64,000 nt of DNA from Methanohalophilus euhalobius. GTDB taxonomy: Archaea; Halobacteriota; Methanosarcinia; Methanosarcinales; Methanosarcinaceae. Both the position numbers and the translations under genes were made by a program. Below, piece after piece: positions 13,603-35,261 of the stretch (the first letter of the stretch is position 1; each line of letters opens with the position of its first letter). Where the stretch lies: NCBI RefSeq assembly GCF_900215215.1, contig NZ_OBDR01000003.1, positions 1 through 64,000 on the forward strand, written 5' to 3'. Under the pieces are notes generated by a model. The model searched no databases. It was not told the origin of the DNA and saw only the letters and a program-made list of their open reading frames with translations.

Positions 13603-14829
13603 ATGAACACATCAACAAAACGCTATCTCAAATCAAGGTTCCATGATTATTACAGGGAAGCAAAGATACATGTTCCCCATTCCCTGACCAAACGTGAATG
13701 GGGATTCATATCGTATGATTCCATGCCTGAAACCATGATGTACAGGCATAAGGCATTCGGTACGGGAGGAGAACTCAGAGACTATCTTGTATCAATGCAA
13801 CCGGCCCATGTGTATCACTCGGTTGCCTTTTATGATTATCCCGATGCACCCACAATGAAAGAGAAAAAATGGAAGGGCGCAGACCTTATTTTTGATCTGG
13901 ATGCTGATCACTTGCAGGATGCACCTACTTCCTATGCAGCAATGCTGGAAATGGTAAAGAAAGAATCATTGAGACTGCTGGATTTTCTGGTAGATGATTT
14001 TGGTTTTGACGAAGATTATATAAAAGCCGTCTTTTCCGGTGGAAGGGGGTACCACTTCCATATAACTGACCCTCATATATGGAATCTGGAAAGTTCCCAG
14101 AGAAGGGAAATTGTGGATTACGTGGGAGGAAAGGGGATTAAATCTGAATATTTCTACCAGAAAGAATTCATGATCGGAGACCATGGAACCGGCACACGAA
14201 CCTTCAACGATCGAACGGAGATACTTTCCAAGTATGTCATCAAAAATCCCGATACAGGATGGGGAAAAAGACTTGCTGAGTATATTGCCTCATATCTTGA
14301 AGAAGAAGGACAAAAGGAAGAAAAAGAACGTTTTGCGGATATAAAGCACATAAAAGGATTCGGCAAAAAAACACAGCAACAGATGAACCGGATATCCAAA
14401 GACAGTAAAGCCCTGGAAGACATACGCAGAGGAAGACTGGATTTTGGGAAAATCAGGGATTTCAAAGCCATAATGGCCCAATTTTTTGATAATACAATCG
14501 ACCAGCATCGTGTCACGCTGGCGGGATCGGCACAGGTGGACGAACCGGTCACCGCAGATATAAAGAGATTGATACGATTACCGGGTTCCCTGCATGGCGG
14601 CTCCGGAATGAAGGTAATTCCATTAAGTCTGGAAGACATAGAGGATTTCAAACCACTTCAGGATGCTGTTGCTTTTTCGGACAGGCCGGTAACGTTAAAA
14701 GTCATAAAACCTTTTGAAGTACAAATGATGGATCTGGATATCCGGGTTGAAGAAGGAGTACAGGAACTTCCCGAATATGCAGCAGTGTATTTAATGTGCA
14801 GAGGGGTTGCCGAATATGGATCGTACTGA
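13603..14829 (+). CDS. priS: DNA primase small (catalytic) subunit PriS
   Basis: 408 aa, standard length. Catalytic Asp pair in FDLDADH (D98, D100), and the conserved SGGRGYHFHI and GSLHGGSGMKV motifs downstream. PriS with PriL makes RNA/DNA primers; priL is not in this window. It starts a tight plus-strand run and overlaps the next gene (GINS) by 14 bp, an arrangement conserved in methanosarcinas. Possible leaderless or short-leader transcript from the 80-bp gap with rqcH. Confidence 0.95.
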   Translation: MNTSTKRYLKSRFHDYYREAKIHVPHSLTKREWGFISYDSMPETMMYRHKAFGTGGELRDYLVSMQPAHVYHSVAFYDYPDAPTMKEKKWKGADLIFDLDADHLQDAPTSYAAMLEMVKKESLRLLDFLVDDFGFDEDYIKAVFSGGRGYHFHITDPHIWNLESSQRREIVDYVGGKGIKSEYFYQKEFMIGDHGTGTRTFNDRTEILSKYVIKNPDTGWGKRLAEYIASYLEEEGQKEEKERFADIKHIKGFGKKTQQQMNRISKDSKALEDIRRGRLDFGKIRDFKAIMAQFFDNTIDQHRVTLAGSAQVDEPVTADIKRLIRLPGSLHGGSGMKVIPLSLEDIEDFKPLQDAVAFSDRPVTLKVIKPFEVQMMDLDIRVEEGVQELPEYAAVYLMCRGVAEYGSY

Positions 14830-15484
14830 ACTAAAGAGTATTCTCCGTCAGGAAAACAGCTCGTCTTTAAATTCCCTTCCCTACAATTTTTATGAAAAGG
14901 TTGATGAATATATAAAGGAATTGGAAGAGGAAATCAAAAAGATCAACAATCCGCGATCAGTTGAATCAAAGATTTTAGAAGACGAAATGCAAAGTGCCCT
15001 CAATGATGTGGAAACGATCTTTATCAGGAGAATCCGAAAAATAACATCCAGAGCAACTTCAAATGCATTTTCCAATATCTCATCCAGACAGGATCTCGAC
15101 AAACTCCTGGAATCCGAACGCAAAGTTTTTGAGGCCACCCTTTCAGCAATCCAGATTGCAAGATCCGAATTGCTCGAACCTATCATGAACCCCCAGGATA
15201 GACAGGACAAGGGATTTGCGAAAGAAAGTATAATATCTGATGAAGCAGATGAAGAAGAGGAAATCGGGACCATCTCGCAGGAACTCCCTGCAGAGGAAGA
15301 AACGGGCAAAAACAATATAAGTAAGGAATACTTTGTTGTCCGAATATTGAAAGACCTTCCTACCATAAAAGCGATGGATAATCTCAATTATACACTTGCA
15401 GCAGAAGACGTTGTGGTTTTGCCTTCCATGAATGCTCAGGGACTGGTAAAACGCGGTGCTGCATATCCAATAAATCAGGAATGA
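14816..15484 (+). CDS. gins51: Archaeal GINS subunit (Gins51/Gins15)
   Basis: 222 aa from the ATG at 14816, which lies inside the 3' end of priS. N-terminal helical GINS A-domain ([20 protein letters not shown]..), an acidic low-complexity linker ([18 protein letters not shown], about residues 140-165), then a small C-terminal B-domain ([33 protein letters not shown]), the A-linker-B order of Gins51. It belongs to the replicative CMG-like helicase with MCM and GAN/RecJ. The coupling with priS agrees. Confidence 0.85.
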
Positions 15485-15510
15485 AAATCAACATTAAAGG
15501 TGTGAAGATA

Positions 15511-15789
15511 ATGAAGATCCCAAAAAGGTTCAGAACATACTGCCCTTACTGCAAAACCCATACAGAACATGTTGCTGAAAAGGTTAAAAAAGGCAGGGAA
15601 TCAATGACCACACGTATCAGAAGGCAGAAGAAAAGGCATACTGGTATAGGAAACAGTGGGAAGTTCTCCAAGGTCCCAAGTGGTGACAAACCAACAAAAA
15701 GAATTGCCCTGCGATACCGTTGCAGCAAGTGCAACAAGGCACATCAGAGACCCTGCTTCCGTGCAAAGAAATTCGATTTCAAGGAGTGA
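15511..15789 (+). CDS. rpl44e: Ribosomal protein L44e (eL42)
   Basis: 92 aa from the ATG at 15511 ([20 protein letters not shown]), which matches orthologue starts; the frame could open ten codons earlier but that overlaps the GINS stop. Zinc-binding pairs CPYC and CSKC are present, as is the conserved loop [18 protein letters not shown] near the E-site. Located directly upstream of rps27e, the usual archaeal order. Confidence 0.96.
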
Positions 15790-15795
15790 GCATAA

Positions 15796-15972
15796 ATGGC
15801 CGAACCAAACAGCAGATTTTTGAAAGTAAAATGCAATGATTGCTCCAATGAGCAGGTTATTTTTGGCAGTGCAAGCCAGAAAGTAAACTGTCTTGTATGC
15901 GGCAGGACCCTTGCAGAACCAACTGGTGGAAAATCTACAATTACAACACATATACTGGAAGTACTCGAATAA
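15796..15972 (+). CDS. rps27e: Ribosomal protein S27e
   Basis: 58 aa, the normal length for archaeal S27e. A zinc ribbon is formed by CNDC and CLVC ([15 protein letters not shown] and [17 protein letters not shown]). It starts with ATG at 15796 six bases after the rpl44e stop, with GGAGTGA overlapping that stop as ribosome binding site. Part of the rpl44e-rps27e-aIF2alpha-nop10 cluster. Confidence 0.96.
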
Positions 15973-15981
15973 GGGATATTA

Positions 15982-16779
15982 ATGGACAACAACAAATGGC
16001 CTGAAGTCGGTGATTTCGTAGTCTGTGCGGTAAAAAATGTCACTGACTTTGGCGCCTACACGACTCTTGAGGAATACGACGGAAAAGAAGGATTCATCCA
16101 TATATCTGAGATTAAGGCAGGATGGGTCAAATATGTCAGGGATCACGTCAGGGAAGGACAGAAAATTGTCTGCAAGGTCCTGAGAGTAGATACCTCACGT
16201 CGCCATATTGATCTTTCCCTCAAGGATGTAAATGAGCATCAGAAAAGGGCAAAGATCCAGGAATGGAAGAACGAACAGAAGGCTGAAAAATGGCTACAGT
16301 TCGTCGCAGAAGACGCAAGACTCGACAAACAGCAACTTCAGGAAGTAGAAGATGCTTTTGACACAGAATTCGGAAGCAAATATTCTGCCTTTGAAGAAGC
16401 TGCCATGCGCGGGGAAGCTGCCTTCAGCAACCTCAAGATCGATAAAAAAGTTGTTGAAATCATTATCAAACTCGCACAGGATAATATCAAACTGCCGTTT
16501 GTGGAGATTGCCGGACATATAGACCTTACAAGTTCTGCACCGAACGGGATCGAGATCATCAAGGAGGCCTTACGGGCCGCCAATGAAGTGAAGATGGAAG
16601 ATGTCCGTCTGGATATAACATATACCGGTGCACCCAGATATCGTATCAGGGTGATAGCTCCCGATTATAAGATTGCAGAATCTGTCCTGAAAGAATCTGC
16701 AGAAAAAGCCATCGAAAAAATAGAATATCTTGGCGGAGAAGGTGCCTTCCACAGGCATGCGGAAACTGCCAAGGCGTGA
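15982..16779 (+). CDS. aif2a: Translation initiation factor aIF2 alpha subunit
   Basis: 265 aa, full length. S1/OB domain at the N-terminus (GDFVVCAVKNVTDFGAYTTL, EGFIHISEI, GWVKYVRDHV), a helical middle domain and the C-terminal alpha-beta domain (DVRLDITYTGAPRYRIRVIAPDY). Binds aIF2 gamma in the Met-tRNAi ternary complex. The beta subunit gene is in this window too, at 42800, with a different set of neighbours. Confidence 0.95.
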   Translation: MDNNKWPEVGDFVVCAVKNVTDFGAYTTLEEYDGKEGFIHISEIKAGWVKYVRDHVREGQKIVCKVLRVDTSRRHIDLSLKDVNEHQKRAKIQEWKNEQKAEKWLQFVAEDARLDKQQLQEVEDAFDTEFGSKYSAFEEAAMRGEAAFSNLKIDKKVVEIIIKLAQDNIKLPFVEIAGHIDLTSSAPNGIEIIKEALRAANEVKMEDVRLDITYTGAPRYRIRVIAPDYKIAESVLKESAEKAIEKIEYLGGEGAFHRHAETAKA

Positions 16780-16785
16780 TAACGA

Positions 16786-16941
16786 TTGGGTAAAAAGATT
16801 TTAAAATGCATTTCCTGCGGGGAATACACCCTGCAGGAAACGTGCCCCAAATGCGGGGGAAGGACCATCAAACCTTCACCTGCACGCTATTCTCCCCGTG
16901 ACCCATACGGGAAATATCGCAGATTGAGCAAAAGGAATTGA
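16786..16941 (+). CDS. nop10: H/ACA RNP protein Nop10
   Basis: 51 aa beginning at a TTG six bases after the aIF2 alpha stop: MGKKILKCISCGEYTL, two CxxC zinc pairs (CISC, CPKC), then the conserved PSPARYSPRDPYGKYRR tail. Nop10 is part of the archaeal pseudouridylation (H/ACA) particle with Cbf5, Gar1 and L7Ae. The product is too short for a normal gene-length cut-off, but the match and its usual place after aIF2 alpha make it certain. The TTG start is the only in-frame start near the previous stop. Confidence 0.95.
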   Translation: MGKKILKCISCGEYTLQETCPKCGGRTIKPSPARYSPRDPYGKYRRLSKRN

Positions 16942-16946
16942 TTCCC

Positions 16947-25627: not shown

Positions 25628-27385
25628 TTATTTCTTATGATCCTTTTTAGACTTGAATTCCTTTGAATTTTTTATTAAACGATGCATTAATCCAAGCGTA
25701 GAATATATTTCATTCATCACATCCAATTTCTCTTCTTCTGAACAAGAATTAAACCATTCAAAACCTTTTTTTTCATGTTTGGTTGGATTTACTATAATGT
25801 CATGAAAAGTATATATTAGAAGACCTAAACGTGCATCTCTAGCGTCATTGCCTTTATCTCCAAGAGTTAAAATACGATTCCCTTTATTTATTCGTACATC
25901 TTTCCAACCATATGCTTCTTGGGTCAACTCTTTTATCTCGTCATCATGCCCAACCCGCTCTGCAAGCATTTCTCTTATAGGGTCAGTTATACTAATTTCT
26001 GGTATCAATCTTCCCTTTGAATTTGCGCGTTTGATACTCTTCTTTATATCATCTGGAAGACTATCAATTGTTGCATTTAATCGGTCCTTTTTAATTTTGT
26101 TTTTTGAGGGACTAGCCTTGGACTTTTGAATTTGTTCTTTTAGTTGTTTCAATGTGTCTGTGTCAGTTTGTATCTTTTTTTCTATATTCTTCTTGAGAGG
26201 CCCTAAATCAGGGTCTTTTGGATAATTCTTCACTCTAGTAACTTTTTCATGTGCTTTATTGATTTCATGTTCGGCACTTTTAATATTGCCCTCATTCAGA
26301 TACTTTTGAGCATTAGAAATATTAGAGGAAGGTACTTTAGATGATTGATAACGATTAAGACTATCAAGTGAACCTATGAATTCAGAAACCTGTTCATATA
26401 ATTTATCGACAAGTCCACTATTTAGCTCAAACTGGTTTCTTGCAGCGTTTTCAACGATTTCATTTGAAATAACATGAATTTCGCCGAATTGCCATTCATT
26501 GTATGACCCTTCATACAAATTTTTCACTAGATTTTCGTTTCCAATTGTGAAACCTTTCTTTTTGAAAAAAATACCCTTATTCGGAGATTTAAGTCCTTTA
26601 TTTGCTTGTGATGACAATATCCAACCTACGGCAACAAGCTTGTCACCTACAATAAAATCTTTAGTAATGACTTTTTCAAAAAAAGGTTCTGTAGTATAAG
26701 GTGGTCTATAAATTGTTTCATCTTCTAATTTGATATTTACTTTTGGAAACGCGACTCCTTTTTGCTGGAGATAATTCTCGATTTTTGAACCTAGTGTAAA
26801 TTCATTTGGGTTAAATGAAGCAGGAGTAACTTTTTGTAAGTACTCTTTTATATTTTCGGATTCAAATATATCTTTTTGAGGTCTTAAAATCCTTTCTAAA
26901 CGTATTATTGTAAATTGACCATCTAGATATGAATCATCTCTTCCTAAAGACAATTTTGAAATGTCTGTAGTTGAATTTTCTAGTATTTTTAAAATAGAAT
27001 TTGTATTGTTTATTTCTTTTCTGATTTTATTGTTATCAATTTCTATTCGATATTTCCCACTGTTTTTTTTCTTTGTAATTATCACTATCTTTTCACAAAC
27101 TGAAACTCCACTCCAAATTCCGATTCCTCTCCATCCAACATTAAATTCATTTTTGTTAGATATGCCTACATTTAAAGCATTTTCTAATTCGTTTAAGTCC
27201 ATTCCTGTTCCATCATCTTCTATTACTAAATTCATACCATTTTCAAATGAAACATTAATGTTTTTTGCTTTTGCATCAACGGAATTTTGTACATATTCCC
27301 TTACGCAATTTAAATTTCCATCATATAATCCAGAAGTAATTATATTTATTAAATGTGGACCAATTTTGTTTTCATCAAATTTCAT
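25628..27385 (-). CDS. Hsp90-like (GHKL) ATPase, fifth gene of the defence-like operon
   Basis: 585 aa. GHKL ATPase motifs at the N-terminus: VREYVQNSVDA (N-box, residues 25-35), IEDDGTGMD (G1 box, 52-60) and VGWRGIGIWSG (G2 box). After a long middle region with a coiled-coil-prone stretch (residues 370-440, NIKSAEHEINKAHEKV..., KKIQTDTDTLKQLKEQIQ) comes a C-terminal helical domain. It resembles the ATPase part of MORC/Hsp90-like proteins. It starts 38 nt after the 139-aa gene and is probably the last gene of the helicase-SMC operon. A role as a dimeric clamp is inference. Confidence 0.75.
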   Translation of the reverse strand: MKFDENKIGPHLINIITSGLYDGNLNCVREYVQNSVDAKAKNINVSFENGMNLVIEDDGTGMDLNELENALNVGISNKNEFNVGWRGIGIWSGVSVCEKIVIITKKKNSGKYRIEIDNNKIRKEINNTNSILKILENSTTDISKLSLGRDDSYLDGQFTIIRLERILRPQKDIFESENIKEYLQKVTPASFNPNEFTLGSKIENYLQQKGVAFPKVNIKLEDETIYRPPYTTEPFFEKVITKDFIVGDKLVAVGWILSSQANKGLKSPNKGIFFKKKGFTIGNENLVKNLYEGSYNEWQFGEIHVISNEIVENAARNQFELNSGLVDKLYEQVSEFIGSLDSLNRYQSSKVPSSNISNAQKYLNEGNIKSAEHEINKAHEKVTRVKNYPKDPDLGPLKKNIEKKIQTDTDTLKQLKEQIQKSKASPSKNKIKKDRLNATIDSLPDDIKKSIKRANSKGRLIPEISITDPIREMLAERVGHDDEIKELTQEAYGWKDVRINKGNRILTLGDKGNDARDARLGLLIYTFHDIIVNPTKHEKKGFEWFNSCSEEEKLDVMNEIYSTLGLMHRLIKNSKEFKSKKDHKK

Positions 27386-27423
27386 TGCATCACCAAATTG
27401 TTAAAAAATACTTTAAAGGGCGC

Positions 27424-27843
27424 TCATTCTTTATTGTTAATGTCTAACTGTCTGTACAGTTCGGCAATCTCTGATTCCAAATGTTTTTCAAGTGTACCAA
27501 GTTGAACAGAATTTACTTTGTCATATAGTATTTGAATTCCAGCATTCGCATATTCTTCTGCAATTGCATAAACTTTTTCTTTATCTGCAATAACTTCTAC
27601 AGAATCAGTTTCACTAATTGCTATCGAATTAAGTATAGTTTCATCTTCTGGTTGTAAGTTTTTTAATAAAAACATACCGTCTTTTTTGATTAATTTTCTT
27701 CTTACACCATTTTTGAAACCGACTGACATTGCCATAAAAAATTGTTCTTTTCTCGATTTCTCTTCTAATATATCTATTTCAGAATATAGTTTTTCTTTTT
27801 GGTCCTTCTCGACAAATATTCTATCAATTATTCTTCTAGTCAT
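27424..27843 (-). CDS. 139-aa hypothetical protein coupled to the SMC ATPase
   Basis: Mixed alpha/beta protein with no membrane segment; its first 45 residues are charged and helical (RIFVEKDQKEKLYSEIDILEEKSRKEQ), and a later helix reads AIAEEYANAGIQILYDKV. Its start codon overlaps the stop of the DndD-like gene (TAATG), so translation is coupled and physical interaction is likely. Its size and position beside a DndD-like ATPase recall DndE, but I do not see DndE sequence features. No function can be named. Confidence 0.65.
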   Translation of the reverse strand: MTRRIIDRIFVEKDQKEKLYSEIDILEEKSRKEQFFMAMSVGFKNGVRRKLIKKDGMFLLKNLQPEDETILNSIAISETDSVEVIADKEKVYAIAEEYANAGIQILYDKVNSVQLGTLEKHLESEIAELYRQLDINNKE

Positions 27844-29810
27844 TATATCCCTCTCACTAGTGTCTCTTTTTCGTCAGAGGACATTTTCAAAGAAACATGT
27901 GTATTTGCATAATTATTCAATATCTGGCTAATGTTTTCAGAATATTCATCTGGGGTAAATAGCAATATTGTTTGTTTATTTTCGCTAATATTAGCAAGAG
28001 CAATTCCAAAATTTTCTCGATGCTTGCTGGAGATCCTTGCAACAGGAGTATCTATTAAAATTGGTGAATCAAAACCAGAGACTTTATGTAAAGCCAAAGT
28101 GAAAGCAAGTGCCAAAAGTTCTCTTTCTCCTGCACTTATACTGCCTAAACATTCGTAATCCATGAAATGAATGAGACTTATGCTATAATCATCATTTATT
28201 TTCACATCTTTAAAGGTGGTCTTTTTCCATAGTAACTCGAAAAAGATTGCTTTTGTTTCTGCTTCTATTTGTTCTCTAGTATTATTCATTATTTTTTGCT
28301 TTGTACTCTTTACAACATCGTATGATTTTTTACAAAAATCAATCTGTGTTTTCAGCTCTTTTGCTTTCTGACCTTTTTCAATTTCTTTATCCAATTCTTC
28401 ATTTAATCTTTTTTGTTCATCAATGAATCCTTCATAACGTTTTTGCAAGACACCCTTTCGCATAGTTTCGTTTTCTAAAATACCTTTGAACTTAGTTTGC
28501 TCTTGATGCCATTCTTTAATTTTTGGTAGATTGTAACCTCCAATTTTTTTGTTAATGTCTTCTAGCTCATTCTCAATCTTTGTAAGATCTCCATCATAAG
28601 ATTTAATCTGTTCAGAAATAGTAACAAACTTATTCTGGAATCTTTTTAGCTTTTGTTCTATTTGAAATAAGGGAGCTTCCATTATTTGGAGGCCATGAGC
28701 TACTTGAGTAGATAATGTTATTTCATTTAATAACTTATTTACACGTGTTTTTGTGTTTTCATTTAGTGGATTTCCACATATTTTGCATATAGAATCTTCA
28801 ATCGTCCTTAACAGAAGGTCCTTGTCATAAGTTGGTGGCAATTCACCTTTATTCTTTTTCTCTTCAATAACTGCAATCGTTTTTTTAATTGCAGGCCATG
28901 TCCTTATAAGGATACCAACTTCAAAAAGCAACTCTTGCTTTTCTTTATAAGCAACTTTGTATAAACTCTTTTTATCAATTTTTTGCTTATCAAGTTCCTT
29001 CACTCTTTCCTGTAACTCACTTACATCAGGAACTCCTCTTAGATTCTCGTCACATTTTTGGAGTTGATTTTGTGCTATTTCTATTTGTTGCTTGCATGTA
29101 TCAATTTCCTTAATTGTATCTTTTATTTTATCAGTAACTTCTTCGTAACTCTTTCGTGTTTCTTCGATTTTTGGACTTTTTTTACCTGCCTCTCTTCTTA
29201 ATTCACTTAAACAATCATCAAGTTTTGATTCAAGGCGATTTTCCAATAAATCGATCTGAGAAATTTCAAAAATAGCATGACGAATGTTTTGACCAGTAGC
29301 TTCCTTGAAATATTGGTCGAGTCTTTCACCATCGAAGAAGAAAAATTCCCTTATATCTTTTGGAACAAAACGGCCAACATAACTAGCAGCTTTTTCATTG
29401 AAATGTATCTGTGTATTTCCATCGGAACCAACAATTTTGACATCAAAATTTATATTCGAAGGATCAACATTTTTTCCTAACTCAGGTTTTTTATAAATAG
29501 CATTCCGGCTGAAAATTATTGTAATTTCCTCATCAGTTTCAACCCAAACTTCAACTGCTACTTTTAGGTCTTCATCACCATACAATTCTTCAACTGCTTT
29601 AAGGTTAAATAGAGGTAACTTTTTGGAATCATTGGAAATATGGGGTTCCTCTCCATATAAACACCAGTTAATAGCATTCAATATATTTGTTTTTCCAGTT
29701 CCATTTTCACCAACTATTATATGTAAGTCGTTACTTGAAAATTTTTTAAATAAAATTTCTGTATTAATATGCTGGCGATAGTTTTGAATGGCAACTTTTT
29801 CAATTCTCAT
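27843..29810 (-). CDS. DndD-like SMC/Rad50-type ATPase
   Basis: 655 aa. Walker A GENGTGKTN at about 34-42, and FFFFDGERLDQY near residue 165, a stretch characteristic of DndD-type ATPases. Two long coiled coils (about 205-330 and 395-520) flank a zinc hook CKICGNPL near residue 345. The C-terminal lobe has SISAGERELLALAFTLAL (ABC signature) and ILIDTPVARISSKHREN (Walker B with the usual Asp-Thr). It overlaps both its upstream small gene (11 bp) and the downstream 139-aa gene. DndD proteins act in DNA phosphorothioate modification or restriction; no dndB, dndC or sspB homologue is seen here. Confidence 0.85.
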   Translation of the reverse strand: MRIEKVAIQNYRQHINTEILFKKFSSNDLHIIVGENGTGKTNILNAINWCLYGEEPHISNDSKKLPLFNLKAVEELYGDEDLKVAVEVWVETDEEITIIFSRNAIYKKPELGKNVDPSNINFDVKIVGSDGNTQIHFNEKAASYVGRFVPKDIREFFFFDGERLDQYFKEATGQNIRHAIFEISQIDLLENRLESKLDDCLSELRREAGKKSPKIEETRKSYEEVTDKIKDTIKEIDTCKQQIEIAQNQLQKCDENLRGVPDVSELQERVKELDKQKIDKKSLYKVAYKEKQELLFEVGILIRTWPAIKKTIAVIEEKKNKGELPPTYDKDLLLRTIEDSICKICGNPLNENTKTRVNKLLNEITLSTQVAHGLQIMEAPLFQIEQKLKRFQNKFVTISEQIKSYDGDLTKIENELEDINKKIGGYNLPKIKEWHQEQTKFKGILENETMRKGVLQKRYEGFIDEQKRLNEELDKEIEKGQKAKELKTQIDFCKKSYDVVKSTKQKIMNNTREQIEAETKAIFFELLWKKTTFKDVKINDDYSISLIHFMDYECLGSISAGERELLALAFTLALHKVSGFDSPILIDTPVARISSKHRENFGIALANISENKQTILLFTPDEYSENISQILNNYANTHVSLKMSSDEKETLVRGI

Positions 29811-29991
29811 GCTTTTCCCTCATTTTTGTATACTCACGTATTTTAGATCTGTAAGTATTTTTCCAGTGCCAATGGCCAGGATGTTCAACTTCTTCATACA
29901 TTAATTCAATCAAAAAATCCGCCACTAATTTGTCATTTGCTTCTTCTCTGATAGTGCCTAATATGTTTTCATTCACTTTGATGTTCGCCAT
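29800..29991 (-). CDS. 63-aa hypothetical protein between helicase and SMC genes
   Basis: Start taken at ATG 29991 (MANIKVNENILGTIREEAN), inside the 3' end of the helicase gene; a six-codon extension to 30009 is possible. It has helical, acidic character with an aromatic patch HPGHWHWKNTYRSKI. It overlaps the helicase by 19 bp and the SMC gene by 11 bp, so it is firmly part of the operon. Such a tiny conserved linker gene suggests an adaptor or inhibitor; that is inference only. Confidence 0.65.
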   Translation of the reverse strand: MANIKVNENILGTIREEANDKLVADFLIELMYEEVEHPGHWHWKNTYRSKIREYTKMREKHEN

Positions 29992-32135
29992 AATGTATCC
30001 CCCATGCATTTCACTTTGATAGCATAAATCATTTTCAATGCTTCAGCACTGTTTGTTGCAATGGTTGCAATTTCTTCACATCGTCTTAATTCTTTTTCAA
30101 ATATTTTCATTTCTATCTCTTTGATGTTGGGTGGCAGATAATCAAAAGTTGGTCTTATGATAATATCATATATTGTAGCTTCTTTTTTACTTGGATATCT
30201 TCTAATAACACGTCCAATTCTTTGAATATATTCTCTAGGATTTCCACTACTTGCCATTAAAATAGCTCTCTTTGCTGGAGGTACATCTACTCCTTCATCT
30301 AGACATTTCATTGCAATTAATACTTGGTAACTACCATCAGCAAATTTCTCTAAAATATATTCTCTTTCAGATTTTCCGTTATATTCTTTTACTGGACCTG
30401 GGTTTTCGTTCATCGTGAATTGATGTGCTATAATTTTTCTCTTTTTGATGATAGATAAAACTGGTATCATTTGTTCTGAAGTACAATATATTATTGTGTG
30501 AATTAGATCATCTTGGATTTCGTCCAAAACTTTCTCAAGAACGCTATATTTATTTTTGGCATTTTTTATTATATCGGCCCTTCTAAAAAGCAATGCTTCT
30601 AATATTTTATCTTTTTCTGCTTGTTTTTTTTGATTTGCATACTTTACTGCAATAGATTTGCTTTTTTGTATATATTCTTCCAATTCATCATCTTGTAGGG
30701 GCACGAACTTTGGTATATATCTATATCTTGTCAAATAAGGTTCGCTCGTTGCTGGATTTATAGTATTTATTGCATCTTCTAAATCTAATTTATAAACGAT
30801 TTTGTCAAAAAATTCATAGATTTCTTTAGTACCGATTTCATCAAACCATCTTTCAGGTGTAGCACTTAATCCTAACCGCCAATTGTATGCAGGGAGCATT
30901 CCCTTTTTGTTGAATGCCGCTCCAATACCATGGACTTCATCAGCGATTAAGAAAAATTCAAGGTTATTTTTATAATCCTCAACAATGGACTTGAAATCTT
31001 TTGAAGAAAAGGTGGTATGAGTAGTAATAACGATATTATTGCTATTTTCTGATGTTTTCATAATGGAATCAATATGCATATTCTGCAAAGTATCGACTAA
31101 TTCACTTTTCCATTTATGATTAGAACTATCAGCTATAATCAATTTGTCATATTCAATACCAAAATTATCTAATTCTCTCTTCCATTGTTGAACTAGATGT
31201 TGATATGGGCAAGTTATAATAGTCAAAAAATTAGATTCAATGTTTGTAAGTTTATCCAAGCAGCCTAATGAAGTAAATGTTTTCCCTGTTCCAGTGGCCA
31301 TTTCAAATATCCCTTTACGACCATTGTTAAACCAGGCGTCAATAGCTTTTTCTTGAGTTTCAAAAAGTTGCACCTTATTTTTCTTTTTACTCCACTTTTC
31401 AAGATTTATTTTGTCAAAATCATTGGGTGCAATATCTATCAATTTTGATTTTACTGCTGATGGTAGGTCTACTACATTTAGATTTTTGGATTTATTGTTC
31501 CAATACCGTTCAAATTTGCTGACATCTGCATCAACATACTCTTTTTGGTCTTCGTAAATATTCTGGAATACTTTGAATTCTTCAATATTGCCCGTCCATC
31601 CCATCGCAGTTTCATTTACTGAACCACTAAATGTAACAATGTTCCCTTCAGAATCTTTAAAGATTCCTACTTTTTGATGAAAAAGACCAACTTGTTGTAT
31701 TTGATTTGCAATTAAAAGGGAACCATAATCATCTCTAGCAATTGCAACTTTTATATCGATTTTATGATTTGCTAACATCCATCCTAAAGCAAAAACATGA
31801 TCTTTTACAAATTCATTTTCTAAATCTTCGAGTTCCAATAGCATTTTTTCTTGAATTACTTGTTCGGGAGATTTTATTGCTTGCTCAATTATATATATGT
31901 CCGCTTGATTAATTTTTGGCGAAACGATTATTCTCATCTTACCATCGTTTCTTATTAAACCTGTAACACCTCTGGCAGATATGGCCAAGCTAGTTGAAGA
32001 AAAAAATCCAGCAAGTCTATTGTATTCAATAGATTTTTCTAATACAGGAATATAAAAATCATTTAGTAGATCATCATCATCTGATGAATAAGCTCGTTTT
32101 AAATTTAGAGACCTTAACCCCAGTTTAACACCCAT
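29973..32135 (-). CDS. PLD-type nuclease fused to SF2 helicase
   Basis: 720 aa from ATG 32135 (a TTG at 32144 is possible). Residues 1-200: phospholipase D/HKD-like nuclease domain with H156-x-K158 in LFHQKVGIF and the following FSGSVNETA motif. Residues 255-700: superfamily 2 helicase with Walker A MATGTGKT (283-289), DEVHG (402-406), GLSATPER, and motif VI QRIGRVIRR near 640. Only one HxK motif is seen, so nuclease activity would need a dimer. First gene of the five-gene minus-strand operon, with over 500 bp of AT-rich sequence upstream. Helicase-nuclease fusions of this type occur in defence loci. Confidence 0.85.
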   Translation of the reverse strand: MGVKLGLRSLNLKRAYSSDDDDLLNDFYIPVLEKSIEYNRLAGFFSSTSLAISARGVTGLIRNDGKMRIIVSPKINQADIYIIEQAIKSPEQVIQEKMLLELEDLENEFVKDHVFALGWMLANHKIDIKVAIARDDYGSLLIANQIQQVGLFHQKVGIFKDSEGNIVTFSGSVNETAMGWTGNIEEFKVFQNIYEDQKEYVDADVSKFERYWNNKSKNLNVVDLPSAVKSKLIDIAPNDFDKINLEKWSKKKNKVQLFETQEKAIDAWFNNGRKGIFEMATGTGKTFTSLGCLDKLTNIESNFLTIITCPYQHLVQQWKRELDNFGIEYDKLIIADSSNHKWKSELVDTLQNMHIDSIMKTSENSNNIVITTHTTFSSKDFKSIVEDYKNNLEFFLIADEVHGIGAAFNKKGMLPAYNWRLGLSATPERWFDEIGTKEIYEFFDKIVYKLDLEDAINTINPATSEPYLTRYRYIPKFVPLQDDELEEYIQKSKSIAVKYANQKKQAEKDKILEALLFRRADIIKNAKNKYSVLEKVLDEIQDDLIHTIIYCTSEQMIPVLSIIKKRKIIAHQFTMNENPGPVKEYNGKSEREYILEKFADGSYQVLIAMKCLDEGVDVPPAKRAILMASSGNPREYIQRIGRVIRRYPSKKEATIYDIIIRPTFDYLPPNIKEIEMKIFEKELRRCEEIATIATNSAEALKMIYAIKVKCMGDTLWRTSK

Positions 32136-32144
32136 TATACCCAA

Positions 32145-32678
32145 TCATTTAGTTTTTAATAATAAATAATTTTAAAGTTTTTATATGTTTCGAAATTATC
32201 GAGATGAGATTAATTTAAAATAATTTTGACGGCACTTCTTTTTTCGGATATGATTTGTAACTCAAAATTTGTCTCTTTATTGAAATCTTCGAATATATTT
32301 AATAATTGTTTGATATCAACCTATGGAGCAATAGTTAAATATAATTCATGTTATCTTTTTTAGCATAAGTTTAAGTTAAGCAAAGTGAAAAATAGATGTT
32401 AGGCACCGAAGTGTGAGTTTGTGGCTCGCTACGGGCACTTGTTATGAACTAAATTTTATGGGTTTACACGACTAAACAATAAATATATTGTAGGCAGGGC
32501 TTAATTACTAATAAAAGGTTTGTGCTTTTTTACTAAAATCCGGCCCCCAACCCGGCGCTCAGACTATTTTTCAATAATTTTATTGACTTTTACCATTTTA
32601 ACTTCTTAAATTACTAATATAGTGATATCAAGATAAATATTATTAATAAGTTTTTTATTGTAAACTAATACATTCTAG
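32145..32678. other. AT-rich intergenic region at the right edge of the island
   Basis: No gene found. It holds the tRNA-Ser-like repeat (32546-32559) and must contain the promoter of the minus-strand operon; AT-rich stretches at 32155-32185 are candidates. A short GC-richer block (32400-32450) stands out but forms no clear structure. Confidence 0.5.
32546..32559 (+). repeat. attR-like imperfect copy of the tRNA-Ser 3' end
   Basis: CCCAACCCGGCGCT, identical to 19148-19162 except for one missing C, and preceded by AATC as in the tRNA T-loop side. It stands as a GC-rich block inside very AT-rich sequence, which makes chance less likely. Taken as the right attachment scar of the island. Confidence 0.5.
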
Positions 32679-32687
32679 TTGATAAAT

Positions 32688-33098
32688 ATGCTTAGAGAAG
32701 GAGAGACATACAAAAGAAGCAAGCTCCATGATGAATATGGTGGGAATAGACAAGGCGGAATTGCGAGCTGTAGGAAAAGTGATATGATTTTGCTTTTTAC
32801 AGGAAATTCTGGTAAAGAACATGGTTATGAAGATGGATGGAAAAGCAATGAAATATTTCACTACACTGGTGAAGGACAAGTTGGAGATATGGAATTTAAA
32901 CGCGGAAATAAATCTATAAGAGACCATCTAAAAGACGGCAAAGAGATCTATTTATTTGAACAATCAGGAGATGGTTTTGTCAAATGTTTAGGTGAAATGG
33001 AATATAATTGTCACCAAATACGAGAAGGAATTGATCGAAATAATCATAAAAGAAATATAATTGTTTTTGAACTCCACAAAAAACCTACTAAAAAATAA
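32688..33098 (+). CDS. Stand-alone SRA/ScoMcrA-N-like DNA reader domain
   Basis: 136 aa from ATG 32688. It carries YKRSKLHDEYGGNRQGGI, HGYEDGW, FHYTGEGQVGDMEF, GNKSIRDHL, IYLFEQ and IVFELHK, the conserved pattern of the N-terminal modified-DNA-binding domain of McrA-type HNH restriction enzymes. The HNH nuclease that normally follows is absent; the gene ends right after the domain (KKPTKK). The TAA is in place, so it is either a genuine lone reader or a truncated restriction enzyme. It is divergent from the helicase operon, 120 bp right of the att-like repeat. Confidence 0.65.
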   Translation: MLREGETYKRSKLHDEYGGNRQGGIASCRKSDMILLFTGNSGKEHGYEDGWKSNEIFHYTGEGQVGDMEFKRGNKSIRDHLKDGKEIYLFEQSGDGFVKCLGEMEYNCHQIREGIDRNNHKRNIIVFELHKKPTKK

Positions 33099-33142
33099 TG
33101 CCAAACTCCACAACAGGAGTACGGCATCCAAATCATCCATCT

Positions 33143-34000
33143 TCACTCAAGCACATTATCCGTCTGCAATTCAAAGGAATCCTGCACACCATTCACATCC
33201 ACGGTGTAATTACCCTTCTCCAGACCGTAGACATCAAGGGGTACGTTGATCTCGAAGGGCACAAGGGCCTGGGTGCATATGGCATCCTTAGGGCGCTTTG
33301 TAGGAATATGGACATTGAATGTGTTGCCTGTTTTTGCAGTTGTGATATTGGCCTCATCGATCACGGTGCAACCATCCTTAAAGTTACCGGTGGCATGGAC
33401 ACTGACCTGGACCGGGAAGGATTCCATCACCATTATGTCTATGTTATCCACATCGGCGGTGCCGTAGATATACTCGGTGTCATCGCCATCTGCAGGGACA
33501 ACCGGTTCTCCTTCAACTTCCAGTGTCAGGCTGAAAGTGTCTTCCTCACCCGTGACGTTTTCCCGGGGACGCTTGTAGATGGCATCAATCTGCTGTTTTC
33601 CGTTATCCATAATCCTGAAGGTCCATACACGGAAACCCGGTGCACCCACGACATCCTCATTTTCAGGCGATTCAAACTTATCTTCTACGATTTTGATGCC
33701 ATCGGAAGTTGTCAGGTTCCACTGGTACCCTGTGGAGGGATTTTCTTCCAGGCGTACTGAGAAATAATCCCCGGTGGAAGCATTCACTGTGCTACTGTCC
33801 CACTGGCCGGACAGTTCCGTACCGTTGTTCAACGTGTGGGCATCCACACTTTCATTCACACCTGTACCACCATCGTCCGCACACCCCGGGGAAAGGACAA
33901 CTGCGGCCACCACAACGATAAAAGCAATCAAAAGCAAACCTGCTCCTGCATGAGTGTTAATCTTCAAGTAACCATCTCCATGTGAATACATGGCATTCAC
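33143..34000 (-). CDS. Secreted lipoprotein with chagasin-like (I42) protease inhibitor domain
   Basis: 285 aa. N-terminal hydrophobic segment (about 20-37) ends in LSPGCAD, a possible lipobox; then a low-complexity Thr/Asn stretch. Residues 80-160 carry the chagasin loops NPSTGYQWN and GAPGFRVWTF, which block cysteine proteases in family I42. The C-terminal 120 residues (TEYIYGTADVDNIDIMVMESFPVQVSVHATG) form a separate beta-rich domain I do not recognise. Composition is like the host genes rather than the island. Start at 34000, or the second Met three codons on. Confidence 0.75.
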   Translation of the reverse strand: MNAMYSHGDGYLKINTHAGAGLLLIAFIVVVAAVVLSPGCADDGGTGVNESVDAHTLNNGTELSGQWDSSTVNASTGDYFSVRLEENPSTGYQWNLTTSDGIKIVEDKFESPENEDVVGAPGFRVWTFRIMDNGKQQIDAIYKRPRENVTGEEDTFSLTLEVEGEPVVPADGDDTEYIYGTADVDNIDIMVMESFPVQVSVHATGNFKDGCTVIDEANITTAKTGNTFNVHIPTKRPKDAICTQALVPFEINVPLDVYGLEKGNYTVDVNGVQDSFELQTDNVLE

Positions 34001-34044
34001 ATTATATATTTATTTTTTAAGCTGCAAACCCATTCGAACCTTTA

Positions 34045-35261
34045 TCACTGGGTCCGCAGGGCTTCCACGGGATCGAGTTTCGAGGCTTTGTTGGCAGGAT
34101 AGAGACCAGCAACCAATCCTATGGCCAGGGCAACCAGGAAACCCACAACAATGAGATAGAATGGGAAAATATAAGGTAAATCCAAAAAGTAACCTACACC
34201 ATAGGAAGCAGCAATACCCAAAACTGTACCCAGTATGCCACCAATAGCACTCAGAACCACCGATTCTATAAGGAACAGGGTCAGTATATTCGCACGGGCA
34301 AAAAACCCAGGGACTTGAGCAAGCCCACTTCCTTTGTCCTTTCAGTCACGCTTACAAGCATAATATTCATAATACCTATCGAGCCCACCACCAGGGCAAT
34401 CAGTGCTACAGAGGTCAGCAGGGTTGTCAGGGCACTGGAAAGCTGATTCAGGTTATCCAGGATATCCGTCTGGTTGAAGATCGAATAGGGTTTGGCATCC
34501 TCGTTATCAATATCCCTGCTGGGTACTCCCACCGAACGGGCAAGGTTTTCATCCACATCATCGGTAACCCTATCCAGGATTTCGAGAGAATCCGCTTTAA
34601 TGAAAAATCCCCCTATATCATCCCTGTGCTGCATCTGTTGCATGACAGCAAGAGGAATAAAAACACGTCCTGCAGGATCCACTTCAGGAGATACGAAGGA
34701 GGCATCCGGGTCCTGTATGATACCCTTTACACGAAACGTCCCTGTACTCATCCCTCCATCCACATTTCTTATACTGATATTTATAAAATTCTTGACAGAT
34801 AGATTCCGGTCAAACTTATCATAGGCCACATCCGAACCGATTACAGCCACGTTCCTGTCCTGACTGGTCAGAAACTGGCCGTGTTCCATATTTATGTTCC
34901 CCACTTTCTCATAATCGGGAAGGACCCCACTGACAGTTGCGGTACGCTCCGCTGATTGGTACTTCAGGGTCGCTGATTGCTGGTTAAGTGGGGAGACAGC
35001 AGCAACACCATTGGTATTTTCAACCACATTGAACTGGGAATCTCCGAATACATTGTTTTTCTGGGTGAATATAACGATAAAATTAGTACCCGATGCTCCT
35101 ATTTCTTCTTCGAAGTACTGCCCGAAACTGGTCCCCATGGATATGTTGGCAATTACAGCGGCCACCCCTATGATAATACCCAGGGTAGTCAGGGCAGAGC
35201 GCAATTTCGCACTACCTATGCTGGCAAAAGCTAACTTTACCGCCTCTGAAAGCCTGACCAT
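34045..35261 (-). pseudogene. MacB-type ABC transporter permease, frameshifted
   Basis: Two reading frames make one permease of about 405 aa. The first (35261 to about 34305) has the N-terminal helix (SIGSAKLRSALTTLGIIIGVAAVI), a MacB periplasmic core domain, then NIMLVSVTERTKEVGLLKSLGF. The second (34260 to 34045) gives the last two helices and the closing signature VAGLYPANKASKLDPVEAL. The switch lies in a run of six T (minus strand) at about 34301-34306; seven would restore frame. No ATP-binding subunit gene is adjacent. It could be a recent mutation or a sequence error. Confidence 0.85.

Follow-up and report, generated by a model that had tools for sequence, protein, structure and literature searches.

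The antiviral cassette PbeABCD was described by Xiong et al. in 2019 as four consecutive genes for a PLD-helicase, a 66-aa protein, an ATPase and a 152-aa protein (PMC6459918). In the system tested in that study protection needed the phosphorothioate (PT) mark, and cleavage of viral DNA was not seen. No dndCD genes lie near 58% of PbeAC pairs, and the partner with which these pair was left open (PMC6459918). In the sections of a 2024 reappraisal used here, PbeC is re-annotated as a CxC-type ABC ATPase and PbeD as DndE, and some clade 2 members of the CxC ABC-ATPase/DndE group carry cytosine methylases in place of phosphorothioation (PMC10853773). How self is distinguished from non-self by PbeABCD cassettes that lack phosphorothioation genes, which make up over half of those known, is a question to which the locus described here offers a testable answer. 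It lies in a 64,000-nucleotide stretch of Methanohalophilus euhalobius DNA (contig NZ_OBDR01000003.1, positions 1 to 64,000 of the forward strand; the window), where PbeABCD is followed by genes for a GHKL ATPase and a radical S-adenosylmethionine (SAM) enzyme. On balance we favour the reading that this is a PbeABCD antiviral system whose self-mark would come from the radical SAM enzyme with its GHKL ATPase partner, and not from Dnd phosphorothioation genes.

The first four genes are PbeABCD

An initial annotation of this DNA had recognized five open reading frames (ORFs), read them as a defence operon and held that they match no defence layout. All five were found on the minus strand where it had placed them, with overlaps of 19 bp (counted from the ATG at 29991), 11 bp and 1 bp followed by a 38-bp gap, and the motifs it had named (the HxK of PbeA, the FFFFDGER and zinc hook of PbeC, and the GHKL motifs) are present. 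The defence reading also holds, since the operon combines a helicase-nuclease with two ATPases, one SMC/Rad50-like and one GHKL, and DndB/C do not adjoin it; the layout is not new. PADLOC, the dnd_assoc_4 family and the small protein identify the first four genes as PbeABCD, in order, an already published antiviral cassette. A component-by-component match to a described system, set beforehand as the finding that would speak against novelty, was thus obtained for four of the five genes.

PbeA (29973-32144, minus strand; 723 aa from the TTG at 32144, with an ATG at 32135) has an N-terminal HKD (PLD) nuclease domain fused to a superfamily 2 (SF2) helicase. It matches PADLOC PbeA at 1e-231 and Pfam ResIII and Helicase_C, with a weak PLDc_2 match under the Pfam cut-off and a match to NCBIfam TIGR04095 (dnd_restrict_1) of 1.5e-121, under the curated cut-off; H156xK and SGSVNE are present in the translation. 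PbeB (29800-30009, minus strand) is a protein of 69 aa starting at the ATG at 30009, or alternatively at that at 29991. It had no match in the PADLOC, Pfam and NCBIfam libraries; its homologues are ORFs of 54-76 aa sitting between PbeA and PbeC in 22 loci, and it is 38-51% identical to its counterparts in L013, L014, L015 and L018. PbeC (27843-29810, minus strand) is an ABC ATPase of the CxC/DndD clade with a Rad50-like zinc hook, as judged from PADLOC (PbeC, E=0; DndD, 2e-46), Pfam (AAA_23) and its motifs, FFFFDGER at residue 156 and the hook CKIC at 342. The 139-aa PbeD (27424-27843, minus strand) is DndE-like. Its match to TIGR04062 (dnd_assoc_4) of 5e-7 is under the curated cut-off; an AlphaFold2 model with a predicted local distance difference test score (pLDDT) of 84 predicts two beta-alpha-alpha repeats, and the top Foldseek matches of this model are DndE structures (5wtu/4lrv), weak in E value (about 1-8) with TM scores of up to 0.66 and consistent in ranking.

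All four features of PbeABCD and CxC-DndE membership are therefore present: an HKD-SF2 PbeA, a small PbeB gene, a zinc-hook PbeC ATPase and a DndE-like PbeD with a double ribbon-helix-helix. The four genes, their order and their domains are those of DndCDEA-PbeABCD (PMC6459918), PbeB having 66 residues there and 69 here and PbeD 152 and 139, respectively. In contrast to that system, the present genome has neither DndC nor a dnd cluster, and the GHKL ATPase and radical SAM genes come next. The core of HKD-SF2 protein, small protein, CxC ATPase and DndE is likewise that of CxC ABC-ATPase/DndE clade 2; there, in the sections used, radical SAM is named only for DndC chemistry and no radical SAM or GHKL partner is listed (PMC10853773). 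The locus differs from DndABCDE in the absence of DndC and in that its ATPase scores best in PADLOC as PbeC, not DndD. When the organism's own genome (27 contigs, 99.96% complete) was searched for DndC, nothing exceeded the cut-off, the best score being 28.5 versus 290.4 bits. The cassette is therefore a solitary Pbe without phosphorothioation genes.

A radical SAM enzyme and a GHKL ATPase follow the cassette

The fifth gene (25628-27385, minus strand) encodes a 585-aa GHKL (Hsp90/MutL/MORC-type) ATPase, matching HATPase_c_3 at 2e-18 with intact motifs (E30/N34/D37, D57DGTGM and G84WRGIG). A sixth, omitted from the initial annotation, lies 66 bp past it on the same strand (24419-25561) and encodes the 380-aa radical SAM protein that we propose as the self-marking enzyme. 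The gaps of 38 bp before and 66 bp after the GHKL gene would be compatible with one operon.

In Pfam the radical SAM protein matches Radical_SAM and B12-binding, both under cut-off. It has a CX3CX2C motif at residues 140-147, whose cysteines C140, C144 and C147 are invariant among 20 relatives, with no further cysteine invariant. Foldseek searches with its AlphaFold2 model (pLDDT 91) returned MgmA, TsrM, MiaB, AprD4 and TokK as neighbours, with E values of about 1e-11 to radical SAM enzymes. The motif together with the TIM-barrel core fold places the protein in the radical SAM superfamily, and the modelled fold suggests that its neighbours are mostly B12-type and MiaB-type enzymes. The N-terminal domain has a B12-binding-like fold without the DxHxxG motif, TsrM being among the fold matches. 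Assignment as a MiaB-type methylthiotransferase was rejected: a second conserved cluster is unsupported, as only the three cluster cysteines are invariant.

In 19 of the 64 radical SAM loci a GHKL gene directly adjoins the radical SAM gene, in each case with the same orientation. A plasmid search with the GHKL protein returned 12 records, the same 12 that are best for the radical SAM protein, which do not amount to 12 independent lineages. The ATPase motifs are kept in 23 members, while the C-terminal part varies. In its distribution the GHKL gene keeps to the radical SAM gene, not to Pbe. Its best NCBIfam match (3e-13) is to the GHKL restriction enzymes BbrUII/HgiDII (NF050001), in which a GHKL ATPase domain is likewise tied to restriction-modification; in contrast to these, the protein scores 49 bits against a cut-off of 550, and no nuclease domain was found in its remainder.

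These data bear on the mechanism put forward in the initial annotation, in which the SMC and GHKL proteins act as clamps that recognize DNA ends or structure and the PLD domain then cleaves, with no self-mark. A Rad50-like zinc-hook ATPase and a PLD domain are indeed present. For DNA-end sensing by the SMC protein and a GHKL clamp we found no support, the GHKL gene travelling with the radical SAM gene; moreover, Pbe is generally accompanied by a modification enzyme (DndC or a methyltransferase), and the tested system protects via the PT mark with no viral DNA cleavage seen (PMC6459918). We consider this mechanism very unlikely.

The radical SAM gene adjoins PbeABCD in other genomes

The radical SAM gene adjoins PbeABCD in eight further genomes (L013, L014, L015, L017, L018, L021, L075 and L078). 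Hosts are a Lokiarchaeote (L013), unplaced metagenome-assembled genomes (MAGs; L014 and L018), a Bacteroidota MAG (L015) and Methanobrevibacter (L017 and L021), with G195 and G346 found via a phylum-wide panel. The gene may lie downstream or upstream of PbeABCD or be reversed relative to it. DndC was present in none of the nine genomes with radical SAM and Pbe genes (own genome included), as opposed to 17 of 35 other Pbe genomes (Fisher p=0.008, uncorrected for kinship). Most of the other DndC-less Pbe loci have a DNA methyltransferase adjoining Pbe, confirmed by Pfam in eight cases. Methyltransferase calls were quick motif flags of which the main ones were rechecked by Pfam; one flagged protein, of 735 aa in L014, was a false positive and is a carbohydrate-binding protein.

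It is conceivable that a solitary PbeABCD needs no partner, or has a methyltransferase encoded elsewhere, and that the GHKL and radical SAM genes are independent neighbours in a defence island. The share of PbeAC pairs with no dndCD nearby (58%; PMC6459918), several Pbe loci with no modification gene in view (L088 and L098) and the further defence-like genes of the island would agree with this. This reading is harder to reconcile with a radical SAM gene that lies beside Pbe in eight other genomes, of archaea and of bacteria and in several placements, and that recurs by DISARM and HerA-NurA. We regard it as unlikely.

G346 has two radical SAM-DGQHR cassettes, L123 (C4) and L078 (C8), with 83% and 71% protein identity; PbeABCD lies beside the L078 copy only.

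The same family adjoins DISARM, HerA-NurA and DGQHR genes

A profile search found the radical SAM family in 29 of 393 genomes at E<=1e-25, and neighbourhoods were inspected at 20 places among these 29. The family is rare in Bacteroidota (2 of 247 genomes). In ten loci the radical SAM gene adjoins a DISARM core, DrmA-DrmB-DrmC, as identified by PADLOC and NCBIfam. All nine DrmA matches with E<1e-140 in the phylum panel lie beside a radical SAM gene, and a motif check of these nine loci revealed no adjacent DNA methyltransferase; the tenth, DISARM-type locus is on a viral-collection contig (L149). The radical SAM gene here takes the usual place of DrmMI/DrmMII. In contrast, the M. euhalobius genome itself has no DrmA match at 1e-60, and PADLOC found no Drm gene among the proteins of the window.

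Several of the radical SAM DISARM loci (L122, L125, L127, L130, L133 and L136) encode a protein of 1040-1110 aa after DrmC, incomplete in some stretches. The one tested (L125) had no match in Pfam, PADLOC or NCBIfam, and a BLASTP comparison of the 1060-aa protein with DrmE found no match. One radical SAM DISARM locus does hold a DrmE-type gene.

In L138-L140 and L173, NurA-like and HerA-like genes are followed by a GHKL gene and then the radical SAM gene. The radical SAM gene also lies beside DGQHR proteins of the DndB family (TIGR03187 and PF14072, both above cut-off), and this pair occurs in addition on rhizobial and Novosphingobium plasmids together with PIN, GHKL and sometimes helicase genes. 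Two plasmid loci carry the gene order PIN_8, GHKL, DGQHR, radical SAM, GHKL (L109, 5078-15558; L110, 5209-14762), with a helicase gene adjoining in L110, and viral-collection contigs L150, L155-L158 and L166 hold similar gene sets. This operon looks like an undescribed defence system.

Relatives also occur in viruses. That of Marinitoga camini virus 1 (48% identity; L108, 9995-13821) adjoins HerA- and NurA-like genes. Viral contigs L144, L145, L146, L148 and L152 carry the radical SAM gene with none of the GHKL, DGQHR, Pbe and Drm genes in the stretch viewed. Viruses carry orphan methyltransferases, and the partnerless radical SAM genes possibly serve, in a similar way, the self-protection of viral DNA.

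The range of these contexts bears on two further explanations. The enzyme could act on RNA or on one of the system's own proteins, for instance by activating PbeA or PbeC or by altering tRNA on infection, as its fold neighbours MiaB (tRNA) and MgmA (a protein methylase) might suggest. This would leave unexplained why one enzyme serves Pbe, DISARM and HerA-NurA, which have few proteins in common, and why it is repeatedly paired with a DndB-family DGQHR protein; we hold it to be quite unlikely. Alternatively, it could make an antiviral nucleotide in the manner of viperin, the other genes forming a separate layer. Prokaryotic viperins are radical SAM defence proteins and, like the present enzyme, occur in antiviral loci. 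They have other fold neighbours, however: the best matches here are of B12 type and MiaB type, not viperin, and the enzyme is mostly tied to DNA-targeting modules or phages. Carriage by viruses also fits self-protection better than an antiviral poison. We regard this as the least probable explanation of those considered.

The cassette is exchanged between restriction modules

Linkage of the radical SAM, GHKL and DGQHR genes with different restriction modules was observed directly. In a tree of 58 radical SAM proteins, the Pbe association required 7 changes for 8 rows and the DISARM association 8 for 9, hardly fewer than with shuffled labels, and the GHKL plasmid group and the HerA-NurA group each clustered. 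Two genomes of one genus, G195 with Pbe and G295 with DISARM, are 77% identical in DNA sequence over 2.5 kb, a stretch confined to the DGQHR-radical SAM cassette; the adjoining restriction genes differ. Among the individual signs that the cassette works with either module, this swap is the strongest.

A candidate self-marking module

In the mechanism that we propose, the PbeC ATPase and the DndE-like PbeD would scan DNA, and the GHKL clamp would load or gate the radical SAM enzyme, which would modify a base, a sugar or the backbone of host DNA. PbeA, a translocating helicase with an HKD nuclease, would together with PbeB block or cut DNA lacking the mark, the whole resembling a restriction-modification system. 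We infer the substrate, the nature of the mark and the role of the GHKL protein: DNA appears the likeliest substrate and a self-mark the likeliest role because the enzyme occupies the Dnd/methyltransferase position, has DndB-family proteins as partners and occurs on its own in some viruses. The case for a broader proposal we judge to be evenly balanced. Under it, several restriction systems with no other relation to one another (PbeABCD, DISARM, HerA-NurA and an uncharacterised rhizobial plasmid system) would share an interchangeable module for DNA self-marking, made up of the radical SAM enzyme and a GHKL ATPase, a DndB-family DGQHR protein or both; this would be a third class of defence mark beside methylation and phosphorothioation.

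Several observations weigh against a self-mark supplied by this enzyme. The DndC contrast does not reach significance when only the phylum panel is considered (p=0.25). In the Methanobrevibacter loci L017 and L021 a DNA methyltransferase gene lies by Pbe in addition to the radical SAM gene, so that replacement of the methyltransferase is not absolute; exclusivity is a tendency, not a rule. Of seven weaker DrmA matches without a radical SAM gene, which served as controls, only two have a methyltransferase (of the cytosine type) in view, so that the DISARM contrast is one of linkage, not exclusion. No recognized partner accompanies 22 of the 58 radical SAM proteins in the tree, including the nearest relatives of the present enzyme. 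Finally, the single operon is read from gene spacing, and co-transcription is putative.

If the enzyme does mark DNA, hosts would be using a new DNA-modification chemistry to label their own DNA, and hidden modifications would be predicted in methyltransferase-free DISARM organisms, methanogens and viruses with the same enzyme. The known part of the locus is PbeABCD; the new part, provisionally, is its coupling to the downstream radical SAM and GHKL genes, since searches of the open-licence literature found no report of a radical SAM linkage to Pbe, DISARM, GHKL or DGQHR defence genes. In a 2014 survey, archaeal dark-matter islands were enriched in a radical SAM family, which may or may not be the present one, that had no conserved gene neighbourhood (PMC4158269).

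The locus lies in a genomic island

The operon is carried by a genomic island (19166-33063) whose AT-rich character, already noted in the initial annotation, was confirmed: G+C content is about 30% inside and about 43% in the flanks. In the same-genus genome G004, matches to 14001-19165 and 33064-34508 lie only 5 bp apart and the island is absent, and G001, G003, G006 and G007, of the same genus, have other inserts at this site. The AT-rich stretch is thus a true insertion. Its left edge coincides with the point where a tRNA-Ser(CGA)-like gene has its 3′ end; this gene was read by eye at about 19041-19163, with an insert in the D-arm region and called by neither ARAGORN nor Rfam.

Two further loci of the island were noted. 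At 21854-24314 (minus strand) an OLD-like ATPase gene (AAA_15 and DUF3696; PADLOC NsnB, 2e-73) lies 4 bases upstream of a gene for a 296-aa protein without a family, and the two are probably a second, separate defence pair. At 19638-21266 (minus strand) a 542-aa protein has a PADLOC match to PDC-S19 and a weak one of HEPN-like type.

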